From: Corallium rubrum
Taxonomy: Eukaryota; Cnidaria; Anthozoa; Scleralcyonacea; Coralliidae
Reading direction: 5' to 3'
Assembly: GCA_964035015.1 (NCBI GenBank)
Contig: CAXIUP010000030.1
Span: forward strand, 12,501 to 76,500
Length of the DNA stretch: 64,000 nucleotides
Of this stretch, positions 4,351 to 53,193 are shown piece after piece. Position 1 is the first letter of the stretch, and the number at the start of each line of letters is the position of its first letter. The translations under genes and the position numbers were made by a program. Below the pieces are notes generated by a model. The model did no database searches, was not told where the DNA came from, and was given only the letters and a program-made list of their open reading frames with translations.

Positions 4351-4390
4351 CCCTCCTGAAGAAGACTGGAAGGTCGAAACGCGTCGAGGG
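4351..4390 (+). ncRNA. Hammerhead-ribozyme-like motif, copy 2
   Basis: Same 40-base motif as copy 1, on the plus strand: CCCTC, CTGAAGA, stem II, CGAAAC, GCGTC, GAGGG. The core is identical to copies 1 and 3. Confidence 0.55.
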
Positions 4391-4741
4391 TTATCCAAAG
4401 CACAGACCTACATTAATCCTTCTACGCTTCATTCTTCTCCCAAAACATATATCAAACCGCAGGCATGTTTTACAACCTATTGACTGAAACTAGACACTTC
4501 ACGTGAAACTCAACTGCTGTGGTCAAACGTAAAGTATTAGGCTTAAAAATGAGCGAAATGAACTGGCAAATTTATGTAACATACCACAAATAACAGTGCG
4601 TTGTCGCCGCCGTGGTAGAACACAAAGTATTATGCTCCAAATTAGTCCTCACTCAACGCCAGTGAAGGTCTCACTACCCACCATATCTTATAAAAATTAA
4701 CACCTCTTATGCAGAATGTGCAGAACGTATGCATGCTCAAA

Positions 4742-4798
4742 TATGTATATATGTGTGTGTATGTATGTATGTGTGTGTATATATGTATATATATATAT

Positions 4799-4846
<48 letters not shown>

Positions 4847-4853
4847 GTATATA
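4742..4853. repeat. (TA)n/(TG)n microsatellite
   Basis: Alternating TATG, TGTG and TATA runs. The open frames over it encode only Tyr/Ile/Val repeats and are not genes. Confidence 0.95.
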
Positions 4854-5318
4854 ACCTGACAATGACATATCTCATGTTCCTATTCACCTATACAAATATA
4901 ATCAATCAGTAAATGTAACCAAGACACCACAAATTTTTAAATACAACCTAGATATAACACAGGGAACAATGTGAGTCTGTGATATTGCCTTATTCCTAAC
5001 TACTCAAACGTACACTCGTACTTGCAACTTAACAGTAAAACGAGACCAATCCAATCAAACGTCTCAACGTATGACGTCACAAAACACAACTAGGACTATT
5101 AACACAACTAACTCAACAAAATTAAGCCTTTCCACTCCAACACCTGACCTGACAAGGATAGCGAGAAAATTTAGACAACACGGGAGTGAGTACAATGGCT
5201 TCAAGAAGATGCGGGCTGCCGAGGAACACAACTTTCAGTAAGATCACAATTCTTTCTTTTTTAATATTATTATTTTCATTATATATACTCTTATTATATC
5301 CTTTACTCTTCCGTGGTC

Positions 5319-7357
5319 GACTTTATAAATGGGTGAATTTCCCGCTCCTCTGTCCCGTGTCGATAGTTGGCGTAAACAGGTTTAGTTCTCGCGTGGTTTG
5401 TGGTTTTAGTTATGTCGCTGTTACGTCAGAAGTAAAAGGGTTATTGTGTAATCTGTCTAGTGGTGAGTGAGATGGTACGGCTACATGTCGGTTAGCGTTC
5501 GTTCCAGTTGTAGTTTAATTAAAAGTCAGTTTACAATTGACAATTGTAAATAAAATGTCGTAGATGTCAGTACTCGCATCAGTTGGTTGGAATGAGTTAA
5601 CAACTATAAGTAAACCGTCGTACGTCAGTAGGTGTGAGGTATATATAGTTATGATTGTGAGTAAAACGTCTATAGATGTAAGTGAAACGTCGTAGATGTC
5701 AGTTCAGTTAACCATTTTAACTGCTTAAATGTCGTGGACGTCGGTTAGCATTTGTAATAGTAAGTTTAGGCCAAATACAACAGTCATTGTGAAGGGAGAC
5801 TTGATTTAGCTCCAATGTTTTCCCATAAGTGAGTGAAACCTTCACTGGCGTTGTGTGAGGACTAATTTGTAGCATTTGTGTTCTACCACGGTGGCGACAA
5901 CGCACTGTAATTAGTGGTATATGTTCCTTAAAATTTGCCAGTTTCCGCTCATTTTCAGGCCTAATATTTTACGTTTGACCACAGCAGTTAAGTTTCACGT
6001 GAAGTGTCTAGTTTCATTCAAAGTCTTACAGAATATCTCTGTAGTAACGTACTGGCATCCGTGGTCGACTTCAGAAATTGGTAAATTCACCGCTCCTCTG
6101 TCCCGTGACGATAGTTGGCGTAAATTCGTATCAGTTGGTTTAAGTCAGTTAAAAACTATAAGTAAAACGTCGTAGGTCAGTAGGTGTCAGGTATATAGTT
6201 ATGATTGTGAGTAAAACGTCTAGATGTAAGTAAAACGTCGTAGATGCGAGTTAGTATTCGTTTCAGGTACTTTAAGTCAGTTAACCATTGTAAGTTAAAC
6301 GTCGTGGACGTTGGTTAGCATTTGTATTAGTTAGTTCATGTCAAATACAACTGCCGTTGTGAAATAAGACTTGGTTTAGCTCAAACCCTTTCCCCACAAG
6401 TGATTGACAATTTTATAAGATATGGTGGGTAGTGAGACCTTCACTGGCGTTGAGTGAGGACTAATTTGGAGCATAATACTTTGTGTTCTACCACGGCGGC
6501 GACAACGCACTGTTATTTGTGGTATGTTACATAAATTTGCCAGTTCATTTCGCTCATTTTTAAGCCTAATACTTTACGTTTGACCACAGCAGTTGAGTTT
6601 CACGTGAAGTGTCTAGTTTCAGTCAATAGGTTGTAAAATATGCCTGCGGTTTGATGTATGTTTTGGGAGAACAATGAAATAGTAGAAGGATTAATGTAGG
6701 TCTGTGCTTTGGATAACCCTCGACGCGTTTCGACCTTCCAGTCTTCTTCAGGAGGGATTTTGAGTCTATGTTGAAATCAGTAATGTTAGAACACAAATGC
6801 TCCAAATTAGTCCTCACACAACGCCAGTGAAGGTCTCACTCACTTATGGGAAAGCATTGGAGCTAAATCAAGTCTCCCTTCACAAGGACTGTTGTATTTG
6901 ACCTAAACTTACTATTACAAATGCTAACCGACGTCCACGACGTTTAACCAGTTACAATGGTTAACTGAACTGACATCTACAACGTTTCACTTACATCTAT
7001 AGACGTTTTACTCACAATCATAACTATATATACCTCACACCTACTGACGTACGACGGTTTACTTATAGTTGTTAACTGATTCCAACCAACTGATGCGAGT
7101 ACTGACATCTACGACATTTTATTTACAATTGTCAATTGTAAACTGACTTTTAATTAAACTACAACTGGAACGAACGCTAACCGACATGTAGCCGTACCAT
7201 CTCACTCACCACTAGACAGATTACACAATAACCCTTTTACTTCTGACGTAACAGCGACATAACTAAAACCACAAACCACGCGATAACTAAACCTGTTTAC
7301 GCCAACTATCGACACGGGACAGAGGAGCGGGAAATTCACCCATTTATAAAGTCGATG
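5319..7357. repeat. Large inverted repeat, arms about 570 bp
   Basis: The left arm (about 5319-5900) is mirrored by the right arm (about 6790-7357). For example GGTGAATTTCCCGCTCCTCT near 5330 is complemented near 7330, and the CTTCACTGGCGTTGTGTGAG phrase near 5840 is complemented near 6815. The spacer (5900-6790) holds two further diverged copies of the same unit and hammerhead-like copy 3. There is no coding content. It looks like rearranged PLE terminal repeats. Confidence 0.75.
6717..6756 (-). ncRNA. Hammerhead-ribozyme-like motif, copy 3
   Basis: Minus-strand copy with the same core as copies 1 and 2, including GCGTC and the 5 bp CCCTC/GAGGG stem. Confidence 0.5.
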
Positions 7358-7361
7358 CCAG

Positions 7362-7923
7362 TACGTTACGGGCTACACCAAAACTACAAAGACATTCAGT
7401 AAGACTTGATTTTTATTTTATTTTTAACTTGTCTATTATACTTCAGTATTGCACGCGCATTCTAATATCTGTAATTTCGTCTTCACATTACTGATTTCAA
7501 CATAGACTCAAAATCCCTCCTGAAGAAGACTGGAAGGTCGAAACACGTCGAGGGTTATCCAAAGCACAGACCTACATTAATCCTTCTACGCTTCATTCTT
7601 CTCCCAAAACATACATCAAACCGCAGGCATATTTTACAACCTATTGACTGAAACTAGACACTTCACGTGAAACTCAACTGCTGTGGTCAAACGTAAAGTA
7701 TGAGGCTTAAAAATGAGCGAAATGAACTGGCAAATTTATGTAACATACCACAAATAACAGTGCGTTGTCGCCGCCGTGGTAGAACACAAAGTATTATGCT
7801 TCAAATTAGTCCTCACTCAACGCCAGTGAAGGTCTCACTACCCACCATATCTTATAAAAATTAACACCTCTTATGCAGAATGTGCAGAACGTATGCATGC
7901 TCAAATATGTATATATGTGTGTG

Positions 7924-7974
<51 letters not shown>

Positions 7975-8288
7975 CCTGACAATGACATATCTCATGTTCC
8001 TATTCACCTATACAAATATAATCAATCGGTAAATGTAACCAAGACACCACAAATTTTTAAATACAACCTAGATATAACACAGGGAACAATGTGAGTCTGT
8101 GATATTGCCTTATTCCTAACTACTCAAACGTACACTCGTACTTGCAACTTAACAGTAAAACGAGACCAATCCAATCAAACGTCTCAACGTATGACGTCAC
8201 AAAACACAACTAGGACTATTAACACAACTAACTCAACAAAATTAAGCCTTTCTACTCTAACACCTGACCTGACAAGGATAGCGAGAAA
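7362..8288 (+). repeat. PLE-related block, direct copy of 4192-5165
   Basis: Second copy of the 950 bp block, with a shorter TA microsatellite (7905-7972). The high similarity to the first copy suggests a recent segmental duplication. Confidence 0.85.
7515..7554 (+). ncRNA. Hammerhead-ribozyme-like motif, copy 4 (variant)
   Basis: As copy 2, but the segment before the cleavage triplet is ACGTC instead of GCGTC, which weakens the minimal stem III. Confidence 0.45.
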
Positions 8289-8518
8289 ATGTATTTTACA
8301 ACCTATTGACTGAAACTAGACACTTCACGTGAAACGCAACTGCTGTGGTCAAACGTAAAGTATTAGGCTTAAAAATGAGCGAAATGAACTGGCAAATTTA
8401 TGTAACATACCACAAATAACAGTGCGTTGTCGCCGCCGTGGTAGAACACAAAGTATTATGCTCCAAATTAGTCCTCACTCAACGCCAGTGAAGGTCTCAC
8501 TACCCACCATATCTCATA
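8289..8518 (+). repeat. Third partial copy of the PLE-related repeat
   Basis: Repeats 4455-4690 (TTTTACAACCTATTGACTGA through CCCACCATATCT). It abuts the alpha-kinase fragment, whose C-terminal coding is cut at this junction. Confidence 0.8.
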
Positions 8519-9437
8519 AAATTGTAAAGAAAGGTTTCCAGTGCAAAAAAGATATTCATCATCATCAGAGAGCAACTCTGCAGAAGCTATCTCTGGATCA
8601 AAGAGTGTAAATCCTGCACCCTGAATATCTAGAAGCATCAACTTGCGGGCACTTTTTTCAAAAGAAAAGTGAACTAGACATTCTGCCTTTTGACACATGG
8701 CAGTTTTGTCTTGTGAAATGGACCCATCATTGTTGACATATTATGTAAAATTGCCAACAACAAACTCTTCTATTGTGACATATTCCCCTGTCTCCTCGAT
8801 TTTCCCCATGAAAATGTTGTTGTAGGTGAAGAATTGTGTGCGGAATCTTCTGACAAAGCTTCAATAAATTTTGCTTGGAGCTGTTGGGCAAGACTCTTTC
8901 CCACCACATGCGTTTGCACAGTTTTCTTTGTATAATCATCTATAGATTGGTTGGTCTTCTCAACACAATCAAGAGTGCTTGGCAGACTTAGTTGTTCCCT
9001 TGCTTTCCACCGAAATGCTGTCCACGAACTTCGGAGGTACGGAACGCACTACTGACTTTTCAATGTCGATTACTCGTGGAATGATCCTAACATGTACGAG
9101 TTTTAGGTCGGGAATCTGATGCAGTGCGTTACAAGTCGGTCCACGTTCACCTGCTAATATCCACCTCCACTCCCTTACTGATGCATCCTTTGCTCTCAAA
9201 ATGGTCTAGAGAAAGGTCCGACCTCTTGTAAGGAATAAATTCACGGGCCCCAATCCTTGAATATTGTTGAGCTTTCCCCTGAACCGATGGTGACAGGCGT
9301 TGTACGATCAGTTCGTCGGACTGCAACCGCATGTTTTTTCCACCCGAGCCTTTTGATGACGCCGCTGTTTTTCGTTTTGTGTTTACATCTCTCTTTGCCT
9401 TTATCTTTGCTTCGAAATTTTTCCACGAACTAGACAT
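8519..9437 (-). pseudogene. Alpha-kinase family pseudogene, deleted and truncated
   Basis: Minus-strand remains of an alpha-kinase (MHCK/eEF2K fold) protein. The N-terminal part (9147-9437) has a Lys-rich start and a REFIPYKRSDLSLDH phrase. A linker follows (GPTCNALHQIPDLKLVHVR, 8969-9199). The catalytic C-lobe is at 8519-8950, with DDYTKKTVQTHVVGKSLAQQ, VTIEEFVVGNFT, CQKAECLVHFSFEKS, LMLLDIQGAGFTLFDPEIAS and FCTGNLS. The DIQG and FCTGNL signatures identify the fold. The ATP-binding N-lobe is missing between the linker and DDYTKK, and frames change several times. Coding ends abruptly at the repeat at 8518. No introns are seen, so a retrocopy is possible. Such kinases form large families in cnidarians as far as I know. 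Confidence 0.75.
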
Positions 9438-9439
9438 CC

Positions 9440-10856
9440 TCTGGCAATATTAAGACTATATATTACTAAATCTGTGATGAAGGGACCTTGGCCCCCCAGG
9501 ACCCAAAATAATTATTGCGATTCGCAGCGCAATGCACTATGTTATATACCATGGTATTTTTTTTAAAATTTTTTTTGTTTTTTAATTTTTTTTTATAAAA
9601 ATATTAAAAATATAATAATAAAAAATAAATAAAAAAGAAAAGCATTTAAGAAAAACGGGAAAAATTTGTGAAAATTCATTAAAAGTAAATGGCAATCCTG
9701 GGCCACGATACACCTGATTTTATGCGTTGTAAAGAACTATTTGCACAGATCAAAAGCTACATTCATGAAAACAACGTTGCTTGGCAAAACTGCCCGGATC
9801 CAGAATTGATGGTGTGGGAATCTTTTCTTCAAGTTACAGACGAAGAAATAAGAAACTAGATTAACCATGCTGATTTCACTTGAACAATTTAAATAAATAA
9901 TAAACATTTTTTATTACAAATTTGACAGTTCACACAATAGTTTTCCTTTTTGTTCATCAAATTGGTCGGTTGTCAACACTCCAGTTTCAGGGGCGGATTT
10001 ACTATATGTCGAACACGTCAAGCGAGTATGAATCCTGAAGAAGCAGAGGATGATTTCGAGCTGTAGGATGATATTATGGATGTCAGACTTCAAGGTTATA
10101 AAATTGTTATAACACGCGAGCAAAGAGGTGGGAGTGGGCCGAGAAAGAGCAGATTGAAGGCTGAATGTGGTGCAGGACTATCCTAGGAATTCAGGATTAT
10201 CCTGAAGCTTAGGGGACTATCCGTCCCACATGTGGGATGTTAAACTAAAAGGCATATAACAAAAAAACAGGGGTTTTCTGTGTGTGTGTGGGGGGGGGGG
10301 GGGGGGGGGCTATTGGGCATGGGCAATGGGGGAGGAGGACATGTTAGAAAACTAGTTAGAAAGCACACTCACTTGACTACTATTAGAAACTTACATGCAT
10401 GGACAACCTAGATTGGGACAACATAGAATTCATATACTGAAAGCCATCATGACATTGCTTTAATTACATCTCGAACTATATGTACGGTATTGTGACATTT
10501 TGTGCACATATTACACTTCAATATTTTTAGTTATTGTTAATAAACTGTTTAGATGGTGTTCACAGATCTCACATGACGATATCTTAAGCCATTCATTTTA
10601 AAGGCCACAACAGCATTATCAACAGCACTGCTCATGCTATAATATCAAGTTGGCATCACCATGTTCAATTGTACATACTATTGGCATTCTTACATATAAC
10701 TTTGGTGTTGACATATACTGTATAACTTTGGCATTGATACATATACTTTTAGCATTTATAAATATACTTTTGGTATTCATATACATTGGTATTCATATTG
10801 GCATTAATTGGGGTTGATTTTTTTTAATACCAGTTACAGTATGTCAATTAATTTTA
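9440..10856. other. Non-coding stretch
   Basis: No gene seen. It holds a T/A-rich low-complexity zone (9548-9660), an unremarkable 45-codon frame at 9722-9859, a (GT)n run followed by about 18 G at 10281-10309, and a loosely repeated ATAACTTTGGCATT-like phrase at 10674-10810. A related phrase is found at 49745-49840. Confidence 0.6.
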
Positions 10857-11345
10857 ATACCAGAGTAATAAATTTGTGGTTGACAGTTTCATAGTCCAAC
10901 TCCAACTGTGTGGTCCTAGAAGCCCTTTAGTTCAGACGCCATTGTTAATTTGTTTGCTCTTTCATTAATACCAGATATGTCAATGTTGTAAAGTGATTTA
11001 ATACCAGAGTACTAAATTTGTGGTTGACGGTTTAATAGTCCAACTCACAACTCCAACTGTGTGATCGTAGAAGCAATTTACTTCAGACGCCACTGTTAAT
11101 TTGTTTGCTCCTTCATTAATACCAGATATATCAGTGTTATAAAGTCATTTAATACCAGAGTAATAAATTGGTGGTTGATGGTTTAATAGTCCAACTCACA
11201 ACTCCAACTGTGTGGTCGTAGAAGCCATTTACTTCAGACGCCAGTGTTAATTTGTTTGCTCCTTCATTAATACCAGATACAGTATATCAATGTTATAAAG
11301 TCATTTAATATATATACCAGAGTAATAAATTGGTGGTTGGTGCTG
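10857..11345 (+). repeat. Minisatellite, unit about 140-165 bp
   Basis: Three full units and the start of a fourth, each beginning ATACCAGAGTAATAAATT (near 10860, 11002, 11152 and 11314). They contain GTCCAACTC, AACTCCAACTGTGTGGTC, TCAGACGCCA and GTTAATTTGTTTGCTC phrases. Units differ by small indels. It lies beyond the 3' end of the Helentron coding region and may belong to its 3' non-coding part. Confidence 0.85.
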
Positions 11346-12049
11346 TAATGGTCCAACTCACAACTTCAACAGCATCTCAATATTGCTGAGGCTTCTCATG
11401 ATTCTACCAGATGTTTAGTTTTATCTAAAATATGAAACAGAAAGAAAATAAGTGGGTTAAAAAGCAATTAAGCTAAGGATGCATGGGAACTTTGCAATAT
11501 TAAAGGACATTTACACAGAGATTCAGTATACTTTTTTACTTACATTAATTTGTTGTCCGATGGTTCAGGTTGTCCAGGTGTTCAAGTCCTTTTCAGGACA
11601 GAGGCACCGAGTATAGGTGCACCATCCCAAGTACAAGTGTAGTGTAACTGCACTAATTCAGGGGTAGACCATTAAAAATCTTGGGAGGGGGTAAAAAAAT
11701 ATTTCTAAGCCTGAAATTTTTTGTCCTGTGTAACCTCTGCAGGATTTGTTTTTGGACAATGAAGGCGTTATTTATTAAAGTTAAACAGTTTGACAGTATT
11801 CTCTGTATATTCCCTGCAGAACTTTTTGATCACTTTCCCTTGCACCGGTATTGTCACCCCCTCCCTGCAAGATTTCCAATGGCCCACCCCTTATTGACAA
11901 ATATGGTTTGTGAATATGGATCCGTGGATCTCTGAGGAGACTATATACATGGTGTAAGATAAACTTGCTTGATAACAATTTTATTGCCAGAAATTAATTA
12001 ATATAATATTTCAATAATTTACCGTAATGTGACAGATATAATTATTTTC
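11346..12049. other. Non-coding stretch next to the Helentron
   Basis: No supportable gene. The 11660-11900 part (GGGTAGACCATTAAAAATCT onward, with C-rich patches) resembles an interspersed repeat, but no copy was found in the window. The Helentron 3' end should lie here or in the minisatellite. I could not identify its terminal hairpin. Confidence 0.4.
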
Positions 12050-13766: not shown

Positions 13767-14557
13767 GTAAGCAAAATAAAAAGCATTTTATTACTATTTA
13801 GATCTATTTAGTTTTCCAAACAACAGGACCGATCAAAAACGATGATAGAAAATGTTTGCTACATGACACTGACAACTTTGATCTTGTCTACTCACCGACA
13901 TTTATTTTGTTGTGATGGCGCTTCATCTCTTCTAGCTATGTCTAGATATGATTCTGTTATTCTTCATGTAGTATTTAATTGTAATAACTCGTATACAATA
14001 TTGGAGCAGTTTGTAATTCATTGATCTTCATTCACTGACATTGTTTACTTTGAGGCGGCCAAGCCATTTCAGACTGACTCCCAGACACACAGGCGATATG
14101 CAAACAGCGTCATTTGTTCTTAAGTTAATATTTCAGCCAATCAGGAAAGGAAACCAATAAATGCAAGTTTTAATGAAGCCAGATAAATTGTTTGACATTA
14201 CAGTTCTCGTCGGCATTCCTGAGCCGGGAATCCCACCCCCTCCCCCTCCCCCAAGTGGTCAGGGGGTGGGTGGGGTAGGGTTCTACCCCACAAAAATTTA
14301 ATACCATATTCTAGTGAGTGGCAATTCTTGCAAGGGATAGAATATTTTCTTCAAAGCAAACAGGCCCCTTCTGCATTATAAACCAAAAATTCAACATTTA
14401 AAACCCTCTAACCCTCTCCCCGCCCCGAGATAGATTAAAAATAGGTACGCAATGCGTACATGTGAGTACCGCGGCTAAGCACAGAAAGAGATATAGACTT
14501 AAGAAGCAAGGCATGACAATGCGTGAAAAGCACACACAAAAAAAACTGATAGTTATT
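13767..14557 (+). other. Harbinger transposase intron, left part
   Basis: Non-coding. It includes C-rich and G-rich patches (14230-14280), a copy of the 32703-32875 segment at 14255-14400, and the GTTATT target site of the palindromic element at 14552-14557. Confidence 0.6.
14255..14400 (+). repeat. Duplicated intron segment (left copy)
   Basis: Direct copy of 32703-32875. Shared phrases include TGGTCAGGGGGTGGGTGGGG, TTTAATACCATAT, AGTGAGTGGCAA and TTTTCTTCAAAGCAAACAGG. The right copy has a short extra segment. Confidence 0.9.
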
Positions 14558-14567
14558 AGTAGTGATA
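14552..14567. repeat. Left target duplication and terminus of the palindrome
   Basis: GTTATT (14552-14557) followed by AGTAGTGATA. The mirror-image terminus and the same GTTATT lie at 24926-24941. Confidence 0.92.
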
Positions 14568-14639
14568 CCCCCCCATATGGCGGATTCATAATTAATTAGG
14601 TAAATTGAATTTTTAATGAGCTCTGTCAATATCCTCCTC

Positions 14640-15075
14640 AGGCTCCTTTGGGACCCTCTAACCCTAATCTCATTATGCATACGTCATTATTTCTCATGCT
14701 CCTTTGGGACATAGTAACCCTAACTTTCCCCCCTAAATCCTGGCTGTTACTTAACCCCCCTGGTATTCACTACGTCATATATTCAACTTATTATTTATTC
14801 ATTCTCAGGCTCCTTTGGGACGTCGTAACCCTAATTTTCCCCCCTAAACCCTAGTTGTTACTCAACCCCCCTAGTATTCACTACGTCATACCGATTATTA
14901 TTTATTCATTCTCAGACTCCTTTGGGACCTCCTAACCCTAACTTCACCCCTAACCCTAGCCGTCACTCAACCCCCCGGTTTTCATACGTCATACCGACTT
15001 ATTATTTATTCATTCTCAGACTCCTTTGGGACGTAGTAACCCTAACTTTCCCCCCTAACCCTAGGTGTAACCCCC
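14640..15075 (+). repeat. Telomere-like subterminal repeats, left arm
   Basis: Five units (near 14640, 14698, 14809, 14918 and 15019) starting CTCCTTTGGGAC, followed by TAACCCTAACTTTCCCCCCT-type text and then, in most, ACGTCAT and a TTATTTATTCATTCTCAG spacer. The longer units are about 100-110 bp. CCCTAA matches the metazoan telomere hexamer but is not a uniform array. A sixth CTCCTTTGGGACC lies at about 16098. Confidence 0.85.
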
Positions 15076-16969
15076 GTCATTCCCGATTGGTCTCCGACTG
15101 ATTTCCGAAGTTACGTCATTATCAAAAGACGCTAGACTTATTTCTTTATAACTAATAGAAACCAACTTTCATTTAAACCCTTAACCCTACTTATAGCCAA
15201 CACTTGTGGGACACGTAAACGCACGGGGCATGCGTACAGCAAACTTTAACAAAATAGACGTTCTTCACAAGGAACTAAAGAGAAATTGATAGAGGCACTT
15301 TATATTTTTTATCTGAAACCTTGTCTGGAGGATTATAGAGAGTTCTGAACAGCGTAAGTGTCTGAATTGGCAGAGATAACTGCTCTGGTCAAACCTGAAT
15401 ATTATTTGAATAATATGGAGACTTTGAATATTATATTAGTCAGAACCTAAATGACCAAACAGTCTTATACACGTTTGGTGGCAATAAGTGTTAACAATTT
15501 TAGAGAGTTATCGTTTACTTTGGCCTAGTTTGTAGAGGAACGAAACAGAAATGGATAGAGGCACTTTATATTTTTTGTCTTAAACTTGGTTTGGAGGAAT
15601 ATAGCGGGTTTTTGGTTAAGTAATCCGAGTGTTATTTTCGAAGAGATGAATGTTGACAGTTTTGGTCGAATTATTGCCTATCTAACCTACTAGTGATTCC
15701 TTGGATGAAGAAACAGTTCGAGAAGTCGTAAGAAGACACAAATCAATTCGAAAAGCGAAGAGCAAAGACTTGTCCATATATGACTGAGATACATCATGGT
15801 TACTAGGCTTTCTCTTTATAAGTGAGGAAATTGTAGGAAGATAGAATGAAGAATCACTTCGAGAAATCGTGAAAAGAACGATTTTAAGTGTCGATATATA
15901 AAGGCAAAGCAGTTTATTACTTTGAAAGCGTTGCTACGCTTTCTGTTACTAAGTGTGATATTTGCATATTTATCCTCAGTGCACGTGCAGGAGACAAAAG
16001 AAAAAACTCATTAGGGGTCATTGAGAGTATAAAGCGCTTAGGCAAGTCTAGGCGATGTCATTAGCAGTGTTACCATAGCGTCCTTCATTCGTCTCAGGCT
16101 CCTTTGGGACCCTCTACTATTACTCAGACCCCCGTGTAATACGTCATAACCGATAGCTCTCCGATTAATTCCCGAAGTTCCAAATGTTTGACAAACGGTG
16201 TCTTTCATGTGTGGGGTCTCTGGAGTATACACCTCCTATTTTAAGTCTTTAGGCATTATGAGAATATTTCGTTTGTATTCTTTCAATGACTTGGTGGCTC
16301 TTAAAAGCTTGTAATTTTTAAAATGTGATTTGTTTAAAGAAACATGTTTTTATAATAAGACTAAATAACGAAATAAAGTTTCAAAAATATATAATTTCAT
16401 ATTTACCATCACACAAAGCTCCTAATATTTACAAACAACGCAAAAGTTAAAATCCATAAGTATCGGAATTATTTACAATCACTCGCTATCTATTACGGTT
16501 GTATATCCAATATATGTTAAATATCTCACAGTGTACATAAAAATCCATTACCTGTCAGTAGGACAAAGTGAATAAATCAAAATTGATTACTAATACTTAG
16601 ATTGAGGAGATGTCTTTGGGAGTCCAAAACCGTTGTGTGAACACGGAACGGTTTGCCGTACTCGTAAGTCAAACGAGAAGTCGCGCGAGTACGAGGAATC
16701 GAATCGAGAAACTGTAAGAACGTAAGATACAGACGAAATATTATTTGTCTATGGAATGGTTGAGTGCAATGTTGCCATATTTGTATAAGTCCATGTACAC
16801 TAATGATGTTAATGGATCATTAGCAATTTAAACAAAAGAACGAGTCTGGGCGAGTCTGAGCGACGTCAGAGCTTAGACAAATAAATCCTAATTAATATGC
16901 TTATTCACGGCGTCGGTTTTCTCGGCGTATCATTTGCTTACTATTTGCTGTTGGAGAAAGACCGCAGAG
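15076..16969 (+). other. Non-coding outer arm (left)
   Basis: No supportable gene. It holds a diverged direct repeat of about 65 bp (around 15282-15350 and 15548-15615, sharing GATAGAGGCACTTTATATTT) and recurring GAGAAATCGTGA-like phrases. It is mirrored at 22519-24417. Confidence 0.6.
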
Positions 16970-17473
16970 ATGGAGGGTTTATATGAAAAATTGTTTTCAA
17001 TGTTCGAAGATATTTACAATGAAACTTTGTGGGAAGAATATTCGAAGCTTTGTCGTGAAAAGTGCAATGGTTGTAGGACTAACCATCCTAGTCAGAAGCA
17101 ACATAGTTGCCTAACAGATGATGAGCAACGGAGATGGTGCCATGAAGAGACCAGGACAAACGTCGACGAACGAATCTGGATAGAGTTCAACGAAGCGGGA
17201 GAGGCGTTGAAATTACGAAATCAAAGAGACTCTCAAAAAACTTCAGAGACAATGGTCGAGTCGAAGGAAATTGACGACTCGCCAAATATTCTTTCTATAT
17301 CTGTTCTGTTTAGCTGTCCATTAAAGTATCTGTACGAAGTAAAAGACACAGGTGTAAAATTTACGAGTGCGATAAAGAATCCTCGGGAGGCTTACGAGGA
17401 GTATCTTCTTGAAAAGTCTAGATCGAAACTTAACGACGAAAAGCAATCTGAACTAATGCTATATGTGTTGTGA
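16970..17473 (+). CDS. Cys-rich protein of the palindromic element (left copy)
   Basis: 167 residues from the first ATG (16970); the frame is open further upstream, but only through a TTG. The N-terminal half is helical and acidic, followed by a Cys/His cluster, CREKCNGCRTNHPSQKQHSC, with further Cys and His in LTDDEQRRWCHEE, which could bind zinc. The middle is charged and low in complexity (SQKTSETMVESKEIDDS). The C-terminal part has a VLFSCPLKYLYEV strand and a Lys/Glu-rich tail. I do not know a characterised family. Similar Cys-cluster proteins are, from memory, common beside virus-like genes in cnidarian genomes. It faces the C2H2 gene at 17701-18147 convergently. The mirror copy is at 22015-22518. 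Confidence 0.7.
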   Translation: MEGLYEKLFSMFEDIYNETLWEEYSKLCREKCNGCRTNHPSQKQHSCLTDDEQRRWCHEETRTNVDERIWIEFNEAGEALKLRNQRDSQKTSETMVESKEIDDSPNILSISVLFSCPLKYLYEVKDTGVKFTSAIKNPREAYEEYLLEKSRSKLNDEKQSELMLYVL

Positions 17474-17700
17474 GAACATTATCGAGTTAATCCAAAGCTA
17501 AATTATGTTTTAAGTTAAAAAAATTACTTGAACTATATAGTGTGTAAGAAAGATGTGTAATTTTATCTGAAGAAAAATTCATAAAGACATACGAGCAACA
17601 TTATAGTTCTTTGTAGTTTATTTTCATATTTATAACAAATTACAGTGTGCAAATTGACAGCTAATTGTTTACATAAACTGTCCTGCGTTTACGATTTCTT

Positions 17701-18147
17701 CTAGCGCACCCACTTCTTAGGGATATCGTTTGTTTCTCTGTTGTCAAAGCACTGCTCGCTCTTTATGGGGAATTTTGATATTTTCCGGGTTTTTTTGCGT
17801 TGTTTATTATTTACGGACTCCCCATGCTGCTCTCTTAGATAATTATTGAAGTTTGTTGCCATTTCCTCTTGTCTCTTTATAATGCTTTTCAAAGTTTTCT
17901 CCATATTTAGTTCTGTGCTGTCTGCGATAGGTTCTTTACTCCGTAAAGGAACACATATTCCACTTTTACTCCATTTTAGCCATTTAGCGCGTTCTTTGAT
18001 ATCCATGTGATGTACTTGGTCAAGATGATTTGCTAGCCTTGCAAGATTAGTGCTTCCGCACCCGAAGACAGGACAGTTTCTACGTGTGCGACCCATGTTT
18101 AGTTGTTTACTCGAGCAATAACAGAAAGCATTTGACATTTTTGGCAT
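17701..18147 (-). CDS. Small C2H2 zinc-finger protein (left copy)
   Basis: 148 residues starting at ATG 18147; a second in-frame Met lies just before GRTRRNCPV. One C2H2-like finger is visible: CPVFGCGSTNLARLANHLDQ, followed by VHHMD. A WLKWSKSGICVPL segment and a Lys-rich C-terminal half follow (NNKQRKKTRKISK). Probably nuclear and nucleic-acid binding; this is inference. It is co-oriented with the ATPase, which lies closer to the palindrome centre, and may be transcribed with it. The mirror copy is at 21341-21787 with the same predicted protein. Confidence 0.7.
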   Translation of the reverse strand: MPKMSNAFCYCSSKQLNMGRTRRNCPVFGCGSTNLARLANHLDQVHHMDIKERAKWLKWSKSGICVPLRSKEPIADSTELNMEKTLKSIIKRQEEMATNFNNYLREQHGESVNNKQRKKTRKISKFPIKSEQCFDNRETNDIPKKWVR

Positions 18148-18632
18148 GTTAGATGCTTTTATTAGGCCCTTTTAGGCCTTATTTGGCCTATTTTGGCCCG
18201 TTTAGGCCTTTTTGGCCCGTTCAAAGATACCCCCATCATCCCTGGGGCACCCCCCCCCAAAGATACTACCAATACCCCTAGGGTGCCCCCAAAGATGTCC
18301 CCATCACCCCTGGTAACTTATACATTTAACCTGTACCAAAGGAATATCAGAAAGACATATACATTATTTGTAAATACTTTATTGAACTTCAGCATAGTAC
18401 AGAAGATAATGTGTCAACGATTCACCAGTAACTTTAATTCTTATAATTGGTGTCATTCCAATTCTATGGCGTTTAGATTGATTGTAGGAGTACACTAGTT
18501 TTTTGTAATAATGGTTTCTTTCGTTTGATGAAATCTAAACATATATTCAAAATGCACCGTCCTGTATAGCCTTTAATAAACCATTATCAGTATGTTTCAA
18601 TGTCGCTTTTCTCAGGTATTCAGCACTTATTT
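18148..18632 (-). other. Spacer between the two minus genes of the left arm
   Basis: It contains a run of GGCCTATTTTGGCCC-like words (18165-18225), a C-rich tract (18248-18258) and repeated CCCC-AAAGAT phrases. No gene seen: the open frame at 18193-18498 is of low complexity. One of the few arm differences is the length of the C/G tract here, 18250 against 21230. Confidence 0.5.
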
Positions 18633-19445
18633 TCATACCCGGGGTTGATATACATAATGTGTATCAGTCGGAAATATCCCTGATCTTACTCGGATTTCAT
18701 CGGGACATGTCGGCGTGAGATCGACAAACAGGTAAGAATACGGGTCTTTGGTTACCATCTGGTAGGCTTGCTGGAAAAACTTTGTGTTGTCGGGATACAA
18801 CTGTTTGGCTAGATGAGTTACTTGACTTGCATCACGAACATTTTTTGTTAGGACAAAGTAACTAGCGTTGAGAGAGATGGTACGATGGTCTTTGCTTTGA
18901 TGAAATAAGTTTTGCACAATATAAATCACGCTGAGATTACCATGGTGCGATTTCTTCGTGAACAGCTTGGCAATAATCGTATCTTTTTCTCCCATCATGT
19001 CATCAATGATAAATAGATTTCTTATTTGGGGATTAATACTATCCAATATAGATTCGGATAAACCTTGCACAAACTGAATCCCAGGAATAAGAAGTTCCAT
19101 TTTAGCAAACGTGTCTTGGTACTCAGAATAAAAATAAATTATATTTTCTGGGACAGGGTCGATCATGATTTGGGCGTTGGCTAACAATTCCTTGACAAAG
19201 GTTGTCTTCCCAGTCTTGGTCCCCCCAGAGACCAAGAGCCCAAAGGGATGTGTTAATTGTATGGAGTATGTCTTTTTGTTGTCTTGGTAATTCGATGCGG
19301 TTCCATCAAATGGCGAATGCTTAAATGTAGAATCAGTAGACATCGTTTGAATTGGCCGCTCTGCCCCATGCAGGACCTTTATGTGGCGTTGTAAATTAAA
19401 TTGTCTTGAAAAGCTCTTTCCGCAAATATTACAAGCGCTAGGCAT
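18633..19445 (-). CDS. C2H2 finger / A32-like packaging ATPase (left copy)
   Basis: 270 residues from ATG at 19445 (MPSACNICGKSF). Residues about 4-27 form a classical C2H2 finger (CNICGKSFSRQFNLQRHIKV, then LH). An ATPase of the FtsK/HerA-like A32 group follows, with Walker A SGGTKTGKTTFVKELL at about residue 75 and Walker B NLFIIDDMM at about 150. Next come a YIVQNLFHQ sensor-like region and a C-terminal VDLTPTCPDEIRVRSGIF block. In viruses and Polintons such ATPases pump DNA into capsids. Here no capsid gene is nearby. The mirror copy differs by a single residue, Ala against Gly, after VLHG. Confidence 0.85.
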   Translation of the reverse strand: MPSACNICGKSFSRQFNLQRHIKVLHGAERPIQTMSTDSTFKHSPFDGTASNYQDNKKTYSIQLTHPFGLLVSGGTKTGKTTFVKELLANAQIMIDPVPENIIYFYSEYQDTFAKMELLIPGIQFVQGLSESILDSINPQIRNLFIIDDMMGEKDTIIAKLFTKKSHHGNLSVIYIVQNLFHQSKDHRTISLNASYFVLTKNVRDASQVTHLAKQLYPDNTKFFQQAYQMVTKDPYSYLFVDLTPTCPDEIRVRSGIFPTDTHYVYQPRV

Positions 19446-20040
19446 GTTCACACAACAACTCTCAAATTACTTGTGAAAATGTCCGGGAGAAAAGTACGAT
19501 TATATCCTTGAGTTTCTTCTCTAATGCATGCGGGATATCAAAACGAACCAACTCGCAGCTGAACGTCACTTGGACGTTACTTAGACGCCGCCTCTAAATG
19601 AATAACTCATGAGTTACTCATGAGTAAATGAGTAACTCATGAGTAAATGAGTAACTCACGAGTTACTCATGAGTAAATGAGTAACTCATGAGTAAATGAG
19701 TAACTCACGAGTTACTCATGAGTAAATGAGTAACTCGTGAGTTACTCATTTACTCACGAGTTACTCATTTACTCATGAGTAAATGAGCAACTCACGAGTT
19801 ACTCATTTACTCATGAGTAACTCGTGAGTTACTCATTTACTCATGAGTTACTCATTTACTCATGAGTAAATGAGCAACTCACGAGTTACTAGAGGCGGCG
19901 TCTAAGTAACGTCCAAGTGACGTTCAGCTGCGAGTTGGTTCGTTTTGATATCCCGCATGCATTAGAGAAGAAACTCAAGGATATAATCGTACTTTTCTCC
20001 CGGACATTTTCACAAGTAATTTGAGAGTTGTTGTGTGAAC
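19446..20040. promoter_or_regulatory. Palindrome centre and divergent promoter region
   Basis: Separates the two head-to-head ATPase starts. The flanks are unique inverted sequence (AACTCGCAGCTGAACGTCAC at about 19549 and its complement at about 19918). The middle (19596-19889) is an array of ATGAGTAA/GAGTTACTC words, itself full of small palindromes; one symmetry point is at 19737/19738 with a 2 nt spacer. Since both ATPases start here, their promoters must lie within. No clear TATA box was identified. Confidence 0.6.
19596..19889. repeat. ATGAGTAA inverted and tandem array
   Basis: Repeated GAGTAAATGAGTAACTCATG and its complement, with occasional CACGAG variants. It can fold into many alternative hairpins. 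Confidence 0.95.
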
Positions 20041-20853
20041 ATGCCTAGCGCTTGTAATATTTGCGGAAAGAGCTTTTCAAGACAATTTAATTTACAACGC
20101 CACATAAAGGTCCTGCATGGGGGAGAGCGGCCAATTCAAACGATGTCTACTGATTCTACATTTAAGCATTCGCCATTTGATGGAACCGCATCGAATTACC
20201 AAGACAACAAAAAGACATACTCCATACAATTAACACATCCCTTTGGGCTCTTGGTCTCTGGGGGGACCAAGACTGGGAAGACAACCTTTGTCAAGGAATT
20301 GTTAGCCAACGCCCAAATCATGATCGACCCTGTCCCAGAAAATATAATTTATTTTTATTCTGAGTACCAAGACACGTTTGCTAAAATGGAACTTCTTATT
20401 CCTGGGATTCAGTTTGTGCAAGGTTTATCCGAATCTATATTGGATAGTATTAATCCCCAAATAAGAAATCTATTTATCATTGATGACATGATGGGAGAAA
20501 AAGATACGATTATTGCCAAGCTGTTCACGAAGAAATCGCACCATGGTAATCTCAGCGTGATTTATATTGTGCAAAACTTATTTCATCAAAGCAAAGACCA
20601 TCGTACCATCTCTCTCAACGCTAGTTACTTTGTCCTAACAAAAAATGTTCGTGATGCAAGTCAAGTAACTCATCTAGCCAAACAGTTGTATCCCGACAAC
20701 ACAAAGTTTTTCCAGCAAGCCTACCAGATGGTAACCAAAGACCCGTATTCTTACCTGTTTGTCGATCTCACGCCGACATGTCCCGATGAAATCCGAGTAA
20801 GATCAGGGATATTTCCGACTGATACACATTATGTATATCAACCCCGGGTATGA
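20041..20853 (+). CDS. C2H2 finger / A32-like packaging ATPase (right copy)
   Basis: Mirror of 18633-19445, 270 residues from ATG at 20041; a GTG two codons upstream is not a credible eukaryotic start. It has the same C2H2 finger, Walker A (GGTKTGKTT) and Walker B (FIIDDMM). The one visible difference is Gly in VLHGGERP where the left copy has Ala. Both copies are uninterrupted, so both could be functional. Confidence 0.85.
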   Translation: MPSACNICGKSFSRQFNLQRHIKVLHGGERPIQTMSTDSTFKHSPFDGTASNYQDNKKTYSIQLTHPFGLLVSGGTKTGKTTFVKELLANAQIMIDPVPENIIYFYSEYQDTFAKMELLIPGIQFVQGLSESILDSINPQIRNLFIIDDMMGEKDTIIAKLFTKKSHHGNLSVIYIVQNLFHQSKDHRTISLNASYFVLTKNVRDASQVTHLAKQLYPDNTKFFQQAYQMVTKDPYSYLFVDLTPTCPDEIRVRSGIFPTDTHYVYQPRV

Positions 20854-21340
20854 AAATAAGTGCTGAATACCTGAGAAAAGCGACATTGAAACATACTGAT
20901 AATGGTTTATTAAAGGCTATACAGGACGGTGCATTTTGAATATATGTTTAGATTTCATCAAACGAAAGAAACCATTATTACAAAAAACTAGTGTACTCCT
21001 ACAATCAATCTAAACGCCATAGAATTGGAATGACACCAATTATAAGAATTAAAGTTACTGGTGAATCGTTGACACATTATCTTCTGTACTATGCTGAAGT
21101 TCAATAAAGTATTTACAAATAATGTATATGTCTTTCTGATATTCCTTTGGTACAGGTTAAATGTATAAGTTACCAGGGGTGATGGGGACATCTTTGGGGG
21201 CACCCTAGGGGTATTGGTAGTATCTTTGGGGGGGGGGGTGCCCCAGGGATGATGGGGGTATCTTTGAACGGGCCAAAAAGGCCTAAACGGGCCAAAATAG
21301 GCCAAATAAGGCCTAAAAGGGCCTAATAAAAGCATCTAAC
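20854..21340 (+). other. Spacer between the two plus genes of the right arm
   Basis: Mirror of 18148-18632, including GGCCAAAATAGGCCAAATAA words and a 10 G tract at about 21229-21238. No gene. Confidence 0.5.
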
Positions 21341-21787
21341 ATGCCAAAAATGTCAAATGCTTTCTGTTATTGCTCGAGTAAACAACTAAACATGGGTCGC
21401 ACACGTAGAAACTGTCCTGTCTTCGGGTGCGGAAGCACTAATCTTGCAAGGCTAGCAAATCATCTTGACCAAGTACATCACATGGATATCAAAGAACGCG
21501 CTAAATGGCTAAAATGGAGTAAAAGTGGAATATGTGTTCCTTTACGGAGTAAAGAACCTATCGCAGACAGCACAGAACTAAATATGGAGAAAACTTTGAA
21601 AAGCATTATAAAGAGACAAGAGGAAATGGCAACAAACTTCAATAATTATCTAAGAGAGCAGCATGGGGAGTCCGTAAATAATAAACAACGCAAAAAAACC
21701 CGGAAAATATCAAAATTCCCCATAAAGAGCGAGCAGTGCTTTGACAACAGAGAAACAAACGATATCCCTAAGAAGTGGGTGCGCTAG
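21341..21787 (+). CDS. Small C2H2 zinc-finger protein (right copy)
   Basis: Mirror of 17701-18147: 148 residues, one C2H2-like finger (CPVFGC...HLDQVH) and a basic C-terminal half. The predicted protein appears identical to the left copy. It is co-directional with and downstream of the right ATPase. Confidence 0.7.
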   Translation: MPKMSNAFCYCSSKQLNMGRTRRNCPVFGCGSTNLARLANHLDQVHHMDIKERAKWLKWSKSGICVPLRSKEPIADSTELNMEKTLKSIIKRQEEMATNFNNYLREQHGESVNNKQRKKTRKISKFPIKSEQCFDNRETNDIPKKWVR

Positions 21788-22014
21788 AAGAAATCGTAAA
21801 CGCAGGACAGTTTATGTAAACAATTAGCTGTCAATTTGCACACTGTAATTTGTTATAAATATGAAAATAAACTACAAAGAACTATAATGTTGCTCGTATG
21901 TCTTTATGAATTTTTCTTCAGATAAAATTACACATCTTTCTTACACACTATATAGTTCAAGTAATTTTTTTAACTTAAAACATAATTTAGCTTTGGATTA
22001 ACTCGATAATGTTC

Positions 22015-22518
22015 TCACAACACATATAGCATTAGTTCAGATTGCTTTTCGTCGTTAAGTTTCGATCTAGACTTTTCAAGAAGATACTCCTCGTAAGCCT
22101 CCCGAGGATTCTTTATCGCACTCGTAAATTTTACACCTGTGTCTTTTACTTCGTACAGATACTTTAATGGACAGCTAAACAGAACAGATATAGAAAGAAT
22201 ATTTGGCGAGTCGTCAATTTCCTTCGACTCGACCATTGTCTCTGAAGTTTTTTGAGAGTCTCTTTGATTTCGTAATTTCAACGCCTCTCCCGCTTCGTTG
22301 AACTCTATCCAGATTCGTTCGTCGACGTTTGTCCTGGTCTCTTCATGGCACCATCTCCGTTGCTCATCATCTGTTAGGCAACTATGTTGCTTCTGACTAG
22401 GATGGTTAGTCCTACAACCATTGCACTTTTCACGACAAAGCTTCGAATATTCTTCCCACAAAGTTTCATTGTAAATATCTTCGAACATTGAAAACAATTT
22501 TTCATATAAACCCTCCAT
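22015..22518 (-). CDS. Cys-rich protein of the palindromic element (right copy)
   Basis: Mirror of 16970-17473: 167 residues with the CREKCNGCRTNH cluster. The protein appears identical to the left copy. It is convergent with the C2H2 gene. Confidence 0.7.
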   Translation of the reverse strand: MEGLYEKLFSMFEDIYNETLWEEYSKLCREKCNGCRTNHPSQKQHSCLTDDEQRRWCHEETRTNVDERIWIEFNEAGEALKLRNQRDSQKTSETMVESKEIDDSPNILSISVLFSCPLKYLYEVKDTGVKFTSAIKNPREAYEEYLLEKSRSKLNDEKQSELMLYVL

Positions 22519-24417
22519 CTCTGCGGTCTTTCTCCAACAGCAAATAGTAAGCAAATGATACGCCGAGAAAACCGACGCCGTGAATAAGCATATTAATTAG
22601 GATTTATTTGTCTAAGCTCTGACGTCGCTCAGACTCGCCCAGACTCGTTCTTTTGTTTAAATTGCTAATGATCCATTAACATCATTAGTGTACATGGACT
22701 TATACAAATATGGCAACATTGCACTCAACCATTCCATAGACAAATAATATTTCGTCTGTATCTTACGTTCTTACAGTTTCTCGATTCGATTCCTCGTACT
22801 CGCGCGACTTCTCGTTTGACTTACGAGTACGGCAAACCGTTCCGTGTTCACACAACGGTTTTGGACTCCCAAAGACATCTCCTCAATCTAAGTATTAGTA
22901 ATCAATTTTGATTTATTCACTTTGTCCTACTGACAGGTAATGGATTTTTATGTACACTGTGAGATATTTAACATATATTGGATATACAACCGTAATAGAT
23001 AGCGAGTGATTGTAAATAATTCCGATACTTATGGATTTTAACTTTTGCGTTGTTTGTAAATATTAGGAGCTTTGTGTGATGGTAAATATGAAATTATATA
23101 TTTTTGAAACTTTATTTCGTTATTTAGTCTTATTATAAAAACATGTTTCTTTAAACAAATCACATTTTAAAAATTACAAGCTTTTAAGAGCCACCAAGTC
23201 ATTGAAAGAATACAAACGAAATATTCTCATAATGCCTAAAGACTTAAAATAGGAGGTGTATACTCCAGAGACCCCACACATGAAAGACACCGTTTGTCAA
23301 ACATTTGGAACTTCGGGAATTAATCGGAGAGCTATCGGTTATGACGTATTACACGGGGGTCTGAGTAATAGTAGAGGGTCCCAAAGGAGCCTGAGACGAA
23401 TGAAGGACGCTATGGTAACACTGCTAATGACATCGCCTAGACTTGCCTAAGCGCTTTATACTCTCAATGACCCCTAATGAGTTTTTTCTTTTGTCTCCTG
23501 CACGTGCACTGAGGATAAATATGCAAATATCACACTTAGTAACAGAAAGCGTAGCAACGCTTTCAAAGTAATAAACTGCTTTGCCTTTATATATCGACAC
23601 TTAAAATCGTTCTTTTCACGATTTCTCGAAGTGATTCTTCATTCTATCTTCCTACAATTTCCTCACTTATAAAGAGAAAGCCTAGTAACCATGATGTATC
23701 TCAGTTATATATGGACAAGTCTTTGCTCTTCGCTTTTCGAATTGATTTGTGTCTTCTTACGACTTCTCGAACTGTTTCTTCATCCAAGGAATCACTAGTA
23801 GGTTAGATAGGCAATAATTCGACCAAAACTGTCAACATTCATCTCTTCGAAAATAACACTCGGATTACTTAACCAAAAACCCGCTATATTCCTCCAAACC
23901 AAGTTTAAGACAAAAAATATAAAGTGCCTCTATCCATTTCTGTTTCGTTCCTCTACAAACTAGGCCAAAGTAAACGATAACTCTCTAAAATTGTTAACAC
24001 TTATTGCCACCAAACGTGTATAAGACTGTTTGGTCATTTAGGTTCTGACTAATATAATATTCAAAGTCTCCATATTATTCAAATAATATTCAGGTTTGAC
24101 CAGAGCAGTTATCTCTGCCAATTCAGACACTTACGCTGTTCAGAACTCTCTATAATCCTCCAGACAAGGTTTCAGATAAAAAATATAAAGTGCCTCTATC
24201 AATTTCTCTTTAGTTCCTTGTGAAGAACGTCTATTTTGTTAAAGTTTGCTGTACGCATGCCCCGTGCGTTTACGTGTCCCACAAGTGTTGGCTATAAGTA
24301 GGGTTAAGGGTTTAAATGAAAGTTGGTTTCTATTAGTTATAAAGAAATAAGTCTAGCGTCTTTTGATAATGACGTAACTTCGGAAATCAGTCGGAGACCA
24401 ATCGGGAATGACGGGGG
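22519..24417 (-). other. Non-coding outer arm (right)
   Basis: Mirror of 15076-16969. A few substitutions are visible, for example CAGTTATATATGGACAAG near 23703 against the complement of CTTGTCCATATATGACTGAG on the left. No gene. Confidence 0.6.
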
Positions 24418-24850
24418 TTAAGTAACACCTAGGGTTAGGGGGGAAAGTTAGGGTTACTACGTCCCAAAGGAGTCTGAGAATGAATAAATAATAAGTCGGT
24501 ATGACGTATGAAAACCGGGGGGTTGAGTGACGGCTAGGGTTAGGGGTGAAGTTAGGGTTAGGAGGTCCCAAAGGAGTCTGAGAATGAATAAATAATAATC
24601 GGTATGACGTAGTGAATACTAGGGGGGTTGAGTAACAACTAGGGTTTAGGGGGGAAAATTAGGGTTACGACGTCCCAAAGGAGCCTGAGAATGAATAAAT
24701 AATAAGTTGAATATATGACGTAGTGAATACCAGGGGGGTTAAGTAACAGCCAGGATTTAGGGGGGAAAGTTAGGGTTACTATGTCCCAAAGGAGCATGAG
24801 AAATAATGACGTATGCATAATGAGATTAGGGTTAGAGGGTCCCAAAGGAG
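24418..24850 (-). repeat. Telomere-like subterminal repeats, right arm
   Basis: Mirror of 14640-15075: GTCCCAAAGGAG units preceded by TTAGGGTTA-type words. Confidence 0.85.
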
Positions 24851-24941
24851 CCTGAGGAGGATATTGACAGAGCTCATTAAAAATTCAATTTACCTAATTA
24901 ATTATGAATCCGCCATATGGGGGGGTATCACTACTGTTATT

Positions 24942-31933: not shown

Positions 31934-32210
31934 CAATTTCTTCGATAAAAGAAGAACTTTATAAAGTGAATATTTCTAGTAAGTGCTATAAGTACGAAGT
32001 ACGAGGTTAAGAGGTTCGGAGGTTGGCTTTGAAATATTAAATTTGTTTCCGATCAAGTATTTACGAAATCTATAAATACTTGATCGGAAACAAATTTAAT
32101 CTCTCAAAGCCAACCTCGTACTTCGTACTTATAGCACGTACTAGAAATATTCAGTTTATAAAGTTCGCTTATAAAGTTGGGCCTTCAACCTTCTTTTATC
32201 GAAGAAATTG
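31934..32210. repeat. Foldback MITE
   Basis: Imperfect palindrome centred near 32072. The outer arms are CAATTTCTTCGATAAAAGAA and its complement; inner matches are GTACGAAGTACGAGGTT and AAATTTGTTTCCGATCAAGT. A short asymmetric insertion lies in each arm. No coding content. Confidence 0.85.
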
Positions 32211-53178: not shown

Positions 53179-53193
53179 CCTTTTGTAGGACAT

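Follow-up and report, generated by a model that had tools for sequence, protein, structure and literature searches.

A multi-copy family of palindromic elements with Polinton-type ends in Corallium rubrum

Can a mobile element consist of mirror-image arms and very little else, and does it enter the chromosome already in that form? The replication and movement of Polintons have been inferred from their genes and ends, and the question is raised here by an element with ends of this type in a 64,000-nucleotide stretch of Corallium rubrum DNA (the window). Our analysis suggests that it belongs to a multi-copy, apparently non-autonomous family, likely derived from Polintons (Mavericks) and likely inserted in palindromic form, probably via protein-primed fold-back self-copying; taken as a whole, we consider this account reasonably probable.

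Anatomy of the window element

The palindrome spans positions 14558-24935 (10,378 bp), with mirror-image arms on either side of a 293-bp self-complementary center (Table 1). Three inverted blocks were reported as 100% complementary: 14558-15071/24422-24935 (outermost, 514 nt), 15068-18258/21230-24420 (3,191 nt) and 18250-19596/19890-21236 (innermost, 1,347 nt), the last of which has one mismatch inside. End-to-end alignment of the arms, with the center excluded, gave two substitutions, at 15782/23706 and 19363/20123, and two small indels, one of 5 nt at 15067 and one of 2 nt in a C run at 18249; the coordinates proposed in the first-pass annotation, and its description of arms that mirror each other almost base for base, are thus correct. 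The folding energy of 19590-19895 as single-stranded DNA is -137.4 kcal/mol, compared with -30.6 +/- 3.4 kcal/mol for 100 shuffles. The two 3-kb flanks of the element gave no blastn match to each other at E <= 1 on either strand.

The element terminates in AGTAGTGATA...TATCACTACT, that is, (AGT)2//(ACT)2, and is bounded by an exact 6-bp target duplication; the chance of two random 6-mers from the window being equal is p = 0.0004. In a study of intact vertebrate Mavericks (PMC8097293), 5'-(AGT)2//(ACT)2-3' is the commonest end motif and is accompanied by 6-bp duplications, which agrees with the earlier assignment of Polinton-type ends. The terminal repeats of those vertebrate elements measure 46-1,447 bp (same study), while the mirror arms here are about 5 kb long, in line with the contrast that the first-pass annotation drew.

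Table 1. Features of the window element, in window coordinates.
Feature	Position	Strand	Description and basis
Left GTTATT copy	14552..14557	.	6-bp target duplication; sequence
Left terminus	14558..14567	+	AGTAGTGATA, (AGT)2 end motif; sequence
Left arm	14558..19596	+	5,039 bp; inverted-repeat search, arm alignment
Subterminal tandem repeat, left arm	14691..15068	+	111-bp unit, 3.5 copies
orf193	16892..17473	+	193-codon open frame; sequence search, no relative
156-codon frame	17701..18171	-	conserved Cys/His-rich N-terminal stretch; open frame, 115 relatives in protein search
C2H2-ATPase frame	18633..19466	-	277 codons, C2H2 finger fused in frame to A32-type packaging ATPase; open frame, profile match, alignment
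Center with axis	19597..19889	.	array of self-complementary ACTCATGAGT-like units
Right arm	19890..24935	-	5,046 bp, mirror of left arm; inverted-repeat search, arm alignment
Mirror copy of C2H2-ATPase frame	20020..20853	+	277 codons; open frame
Mirror copy of 156-codon frame	21317..21787	+	open frame
Mirror copy of 193-codon frame	22015..22596	-	open frame
Subterminal tandem repeat, right arm	24413..24802	-	111-bp unit, 3.6 copies
Right terminus	24926..24935	-	(AGT)2 motif, inverted; sequence
Right GTTATT copy	24936..24941	.	6-bp target duplication; sequence

Palindromic relatives across the genome

With the first 1 kb of the element as query, the 40 candidates scored out of 1,741 comprised 15 inverted pairs, including the window, and 10 single places. 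The ATPase region (40 scored of 410 candidates) returned 14 full head-to-head pairs, again including the window, one further pair in which the mate is incomplete, and 11 single places; all 40 full-length matches to this region have at least 99% identity. Twenty other loci were fetched because their paired matches hinted at mirror arms, and they are therefore not an unbiased sample; outside it lie two further loci paired with the first-1-kb query (C1:26399210-26408723 and C23:13274355-13284354) and all of the single places.

Of the 20 fetched loci, 18 are palindromes; the aligned arms of 15 of them extend to within 23 nt of the point at which the two halves were divided. Divergence between arms ranges from 3/4,925 to 121/2,929 aligned bases across the 18. 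A perfect 6-bp duplication is present at 19 of the 20 loci (17 of the 18 palindromes), with 18 distinct sequences, and similar palindromes with different duplications sit in contigs of up to 96 Mb. The Polinton-type end motif was likewise found at 19 of 20 loci; at two of these 19, one end has an additional AGT, an imbalance that protein-primed initiation with slide-back would permit. The two loci that are not palindromes (L053/L054 and L055/L056) share the end motif and, at 94-95% identity, the outer 818 bp, but differ in having repeats of about 3 kb around a unique middle, which holds a single ATPase 43-46% identical to that of the window.

Further whole-element palindromes flanked by separate 6-bp duplications, the check proposed in the first-pass annotation, are thus present in the genome. 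The first-pass annotation had also argued from the exact duplication that the element inserted already as a palindrome. The duplication at a single locus is not proof, since an ordinary element could also have kept it through repair between its two ends. What makes insertion as a palindrome likely is the family: 18 more palindromes occupy separate sites, and 17 of these have a perfect duplication of their own. Judged from these sequences, the family elements most likely moved as palindromes. A literature search returned no described family of whole-element palindromes among the titles and abstract openings that it covered. The family would also provide naturally occurring examples of very long palindromes tolerated by animal or other eukaryotic chromosomes.

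Gene content and relation to Polintons

Apart from its ends and duplication, the window element shares with Polintons an A32-type packaging ATPase, and its presence in each arm strengthens the link. The Pox_A32 profile matches the window ATPase with E 0.00044 and 20.2 bits, under the cut-off of 22.8, and 14 of the 15 aligned ATPase members match at E <= 0.001. The protein is 45-47% identical to ATPases on the Escarpia contigs L001 and L002, the first of which carries its ATPase adjoining a polymerase. Its fusion to a C2H2 finger was found in none of the 14 aligned relatives; the finger itself has a weak link to the polymerase gene, a 20-residue match in each window arm with E 0.024. In relatives the ATPase is followed by a small gene; a search for its remnant in the window did not establish one, all matches having E > 0.3.

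Searched with Escarpia queries, the window arms, unlike Polintons, gave no integrase, capsid or protease gene and no polymerase body. Among these queries, those labeled capsid were so assigned by gene order and length (Pfam matches nothing in them). Even at E <= 10, the polymerase, integrase, MCP and protease queries found nothing in the arms except the finger and the ATPase, yet the same queries recover those genes across distant contigs. The 40 fetched halves of the other loci similarly gave no polymerase, integrase, capsid or protease match at E 1e-4. A Pfam scan of the three arm frames identified no transposase domain of the P or Mutator type; an enzyme acting from another location could move the element. 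With 10,378 bp and arms of about 5 kb, the element also does not match the size of Polintons, which are about 15-20 kb long and have terminal repeats in the hundreds of bases, and it is apparently a non-autonomous derivative, short of a complete Polinton.

Of 36 arms, 29 retain an open C2H2-ATPase frame. With the window's frames as the standard, 5 of 32 arms have an intact 156-codon frame, and orf193 is intact only in the two window arms (2 of 32). Distinct changes in the ATPase frame relative to the window copy number 15 non-synonymous and 5 synonymous, near the neutral expectation of 3.55 to 1, and therefore give no sign of purifying selection; a gene-bearing satellite maintained by selection on the ATPase is unsupported.

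Other searches added little. Sequence search found no relative of orf193, and its predicted model (mean pLDDT 43) led nowhere. The predicted ATPase model (mean pLDDT 65.7) gave no useful match to viral or PDB folds, and a PDB sequence search gave weak P-loop matches and nothing more. Phage records, Rfam, and viral contigs queried with the ATPase, the ATPase alignment and the 156-codon alignment returned nothing useful; the 16-base end matched three viral contigs, without wider similarity.

Arm similarity and the origin of the palindromes

Across 14 elements, mate arms differ by a mean of 0.092%, compared with 0.49% for random arm pairing, and none of 10,000 shuffles was as low. The window mates differ by 0.037%, and the nearest other arm by 0.628%. 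In 6 of the 14 elements no other arm is as close as the mate, in 4 the mate is tied, and in the other 4 (L027, L045, L047 and L051) an arm of another element is closer. When whole arms are compared, 23 of 38 have their mate as best match; in young copies, arms from other elements match as well as the mates do, or better. Gene conversion after insertion is an alternative way to equalize arms.

Most centers are self-complementary arrays that hold the axis. In L031/L032, the axis lies about 497 bp beyond the array, inside the mirrored ATPase; in L033/L034 it adjoins an inverted segment from the outer arm, and in L059/L060 it falls inside subterminal-type repeats.

We infer that these structures come from a linear genome that is replicated by protein priming and folds back to copy itself. 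A helper Polinton would provide the polymerase, terminal protein and integrase. DNA synthesis would start from one of the termini, and the nascent 3' end would stall within the self-complementary array, or elsewhere, anneal to its own strand and copy back to the start. The product would be a hairpin with one terminus, whose replication would yield a linear duplex identical at both ends; the integrase would then insert this duplex, generating the 6-bp duplication. Remaking both arms from one in each cycle would explain the agreement of mate arms even where elements differ. Neither a terminal protein nor an extrachromosomal form was seen. In adenovirus defective genomes and pGKL1-derived yeast plasmids, one end is mirrored, and these are thought to arise by fold-back copying. 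In AAV snap-back genomes too (PMC8235507), one end is duplicated as its own mirror and fold-back copying is thought responsible. The window element and its family show this feature of snap-back replicons, an inverted duplication of one end with both termini intact; the AAV, adenovirus and pGKL1 forms are free molecules, whereas the coral elements are chromosomal, occupy many sites and carry target duplications.

The palindrome might instead have originated once, by any route, and then spread as an ordinary foldback-type transposon, with chromosomal conversion between arms and no fold-back in each cycle. The common C2H2-ATPase junction and central array fit a single ancestral palindrome, as does the close match between arms of different young copies, and giant repeats have precedent among foldback-type elements: FB, Galileo and Tetris share long, internally repetitive terminal repeats with the family (PMC3573991 and PMC4079207). 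Galileo, however, is a member of the P superfamily (PMC4168063), while the ends, duplication length and genes of the window element are Polinton-like, and intact vertebrate Mavericks typically have terminal repeats of hundreds of bases (PMC8097293). The position of the axis, moreover, varies among elements, including a second-order axis in L031/L032, and new axes therefore arose more than once; we judge such a spread to be unlikely. In-place formation, in which a normal Polinton inserted and end-to-end repair then swapped one half for the mirror of the other, would preserve the ends and the duplication, and the roughly 3-kb repeats of L053-L056 could be partly converted elements. It would, however, need the same event and the same internal deletions repeatedly to account for 18 related palindromes at separate sites, the young ones near-identical, which makes it very improbable.

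It is extremely doubtful that the family is a complete or near-complete Polinton lineage whose terminal repeats turned giant and whose missing genes diverged past recognition: orf193 has no relative and the 156-codon frame has many, but most of the arm is already accounted for, and the queries that are blank in the arms succeed on distant contigs. Fold-back reads can yield mirror contigs, and the window contig measures only 99 kb; an artefact of this kind would, however, mirror the flanks too, and these are unrelated. Since the arms also bear private differences and similar palindromes with other duplications lie within very large contigs, we reject an assembly artefact as scarcely credible.

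Under the favored reading of fold-back copying, the elements may be palindromic Polinton satellites that replicate through hairpins, each transposition rebuilding both arms from one, so that the copies would be fossils of replication intermediates and arm divergence would date each insertion; we see the chances of this fuller version as evenly balanced. If it is true, chromosomal mirror dimers, each with intact Polinton ends and a separate target duplication, would be direct sequence evidence of fold-back self-copying before integration, and each insertion would be timed by the divergence between its arms, in the way that LTRs are used for retroviruses. More speculatively, hairpin RNA directed at the parent element may arise from the arms.

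Structure of the palindromic element and its relatives

The two arms of the element mirror each other almost exactly, as the first-pass annotation had claimed; the differences outside the centre amount to two substitutions and two indels, one of 5 nt and one of 2 nt, the latter in a run of C. Both element ends read AGTAGTGATA inwards, with 111-bp inner subterminal repeats close to each. The hexamer GTTATT, previously described as a direct repeat, is indeed present on either side of the element, and comparison of the left and right flanks found no relatedness between them. Self-complementary units resembling ACTCATGAGT make up the array at the centre, whose predicted folding is far stronger than that of shuffled sequences. 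Intact vertebrate Mavericks have terminal repeats of 46-1,447 bp (PMC8097293), whereas the arms here measure 5,039 and 5,046 bp.

Features of the window
Feature	Coordinates	Description
Palindrome	14558-24935	10,378 bp
Left arm	14558-19596	5,039 bp
Centre between arms		293 bp
Right arm	19890-24935	5,046 bp
Clustered inverted repeats	4319-8528	230-570 bp, 98-99% identity, several copies face-to-face; foldback-like
Self-complementary stretch	31954-32166	80% self-complementary
Endonuclease domain	45218-46069	Non-LTR retrotransposon type
Gypsy-like retrotransposon pieces	51439-56028	Aspartic protease, integrase and reverse transcriptase/RNase H frames, in unusual order
Helicase-related frame	60633-61616	Matches helicase C-terminal and RecQ zinc-binding
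DUF6589 frame	61703-62452	

The genome searched comprises 474 Mb in 312 contigs, with the window at C45:12501-76500. The element's first 1 kb as query gave 82 match pieces; 30 of the 40 places scored, from 1,741 candidates, form 15 inverted pairs (including the window) and 10 are single. With the ATPase end of the arm as query, 40 places were scored from 410 candidates; they comprise 14 complete head-to-head pairs, a further pair in which one mate is partial and 11 places that stand alone, and all 40 full-length matches reach at least 99% identity. Single places may possess mates among the unscored candidates, and C1:52690423, single in the search, was shown on fetching to have one.

Twenty other loci, chosen for paired matches hinting at mirror arms, were retrieved as separate halves. 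The first-pass annotation had proposed looking for other palindromes with 6-bp duplications of their own, and these exist: 18 of the 20 loci are palindromes, and an exact 6-bp duplication, in a test that tolerated additional AGT copies, lies next to AGTAGT[AG]ATA ends in 19 of the 20, with 18 distinct sequences. Three of these 19 (L039, L043 and L055) sit in simple-repeat or TA-rich targets, so that the duplication match is less informative there. One end of L035/L036 is damaged, and L029 and L051 have three AGT copies at one end versus two at the other; the jumping-back model of protein-primed starts relies on such end repetition (PMC8097293). In 15 of the 18 palindromes the aligned arms extend to no more than 23 nt from the point at which the halves were divided, the exceptions being L033, L049 and L059.

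Fifteen loci (L023-L052) share the window's build, with sequences of all three frames in the arms; in L049 the ATPase on the left is truncated, and L043 and L049 show asymmetric gains or losses. Two further palindromes, L059/L060 and L061/L062, carry the ATPase but lack both the 156-codon frame and the 193-codon frame (orf193), and the palindrome L057/L058 has no ATPase. In L053/L054 and L055/L056, repeats of about 3 kb flank a unique middle with a single ATPase. Together with L013, these two loci form a sister family that shares the outer 818 bp and has a pB-like match in the arms (27%, E about 1e-5) and one divergent ATPase.

Arm divergence, axes and mechanism

Homologous segments of the two arms, or mates, were compared in 14 elements, namely the 16 of the window's build minus L043 and L049, in each of which a segment is missing. 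Mates differ by 0.092% on average versus 0.49% for random pairs, a value as low as which appeared in none of 10,000 shuffles; for the window the figures are 0.037% to the mate and 0.628% to the closest other arm. In six of the 14 the mate was strictly nearest, in four it tied and in four (L027, L045, L047 and L051) it was beaten; by a whole-arm measure it was the best match for 23 of 38 arms. The young copies constitute a burst of nearly identical elements, and in the older or divergent elements (the window, L031, L041, L057, L059 and L061) the mate is far closer than any other arm. Such a pattern would follow if each cycle derived both arms from a single one; gene conversion would also produce it.

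For most elements the mirror axis lies in the array, and 241-1,529 bp separates the ATPase blocks in the pairs from the ATPase-end search. The axis of L031/L032 falls inside the mirrored ATPase, so that two of the ATPase copies are full and two are partial; here the strand apparently crossed the array and went 497 bp into the mirrored ATPase before it turned back, resulting in a second-order axis. The axis of L033/L034 adjoins an inverted piece of the outer arm, and that of L059/L060 is within subterminal-type repeats. The axis sites thus differ, and new axes therefore arose more than once.

That these elements are palindromes with characteristic ends and duplications, present in multiple copies, is evident from the genome. 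We favour fold-back copying, followed by integrase insertion of the mirror dimer, as their source: a protein-primed linear genome with a terminal protein would have been copied by fold-back, through a hairpin intermediate, in a cell that also contained a helper Polinton, and the mirror dimer would then have been inserted by integrase. Defective adenovirus genomes and pGKL1-derived plasmids provide parallels. Snap-back genomes of AAV are a further parallel (PMC8235507). No palindromic Polinton family appeared among the titles and abstract openings listed in our search of the openly available literature.

Gene content and the C2H2-ATPase frame

Each window arm contains three frames: one of 277 codons that joins a C2H2 finger to a Pox_A32-type ATPase downstream of it, one of 156 codons, and orf193. 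Protein searches returned 232 proteins at E <= 0.001 for the ATPase (best, 86% identity; names uninformative among the 120 matches listed of the 232), 115 relatives for the 156-codon frame and none for orf193. No match to an integrase, capsid or protease was found within the window arms, and from this gene content the element looks non-autonomous. In the ATPase, 15 non-synonymous changes were counted to 5 synonymous ones, near the 3.55 to 1 expected under neutrality, and the 156-codon frame and orf193, judged by the window's frame, are broken in most copies; the genes therefore need not matter to the family.

The finger is absent from all 14 aligned ATPase relatives (14 of the 232), so the C2H2-ATPase fusion looks derived. 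Of the contigs fetched, L001 alone holds a long polymerase cassette; its record is assigned to a bacterial symbiont of Escarpia, a tubeworm, and its DNA is probably that of the tubeworm host. Its cassette (1-11769) comprises a polymerase (DNA_pol_B_2), an ATPase, two small frames, an integrase (rve, chromo), two putative capsid frames, labelled from order and length with no Pfam matches, and an adenovirus-type protease match under the cut-off. C2H2-like fingers open the polymerase frame, which lies directly upstream of the ATPase, and the best matches of this polymerase in the whole window are to the finger in both arms (20 residues, 55%, E 0.024 and 0.025). A deletion fusing the start of a polymerase gene to the ATPase might conceivably have given rise to the C2H2-ATPase frame. 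Another Polinton gene cassette occupies 8500-15500 of L006, a contig whose record is assigned to a bacterial symbiont of a mussel; as for the Escarpia contig, the DNA is probably the host's.
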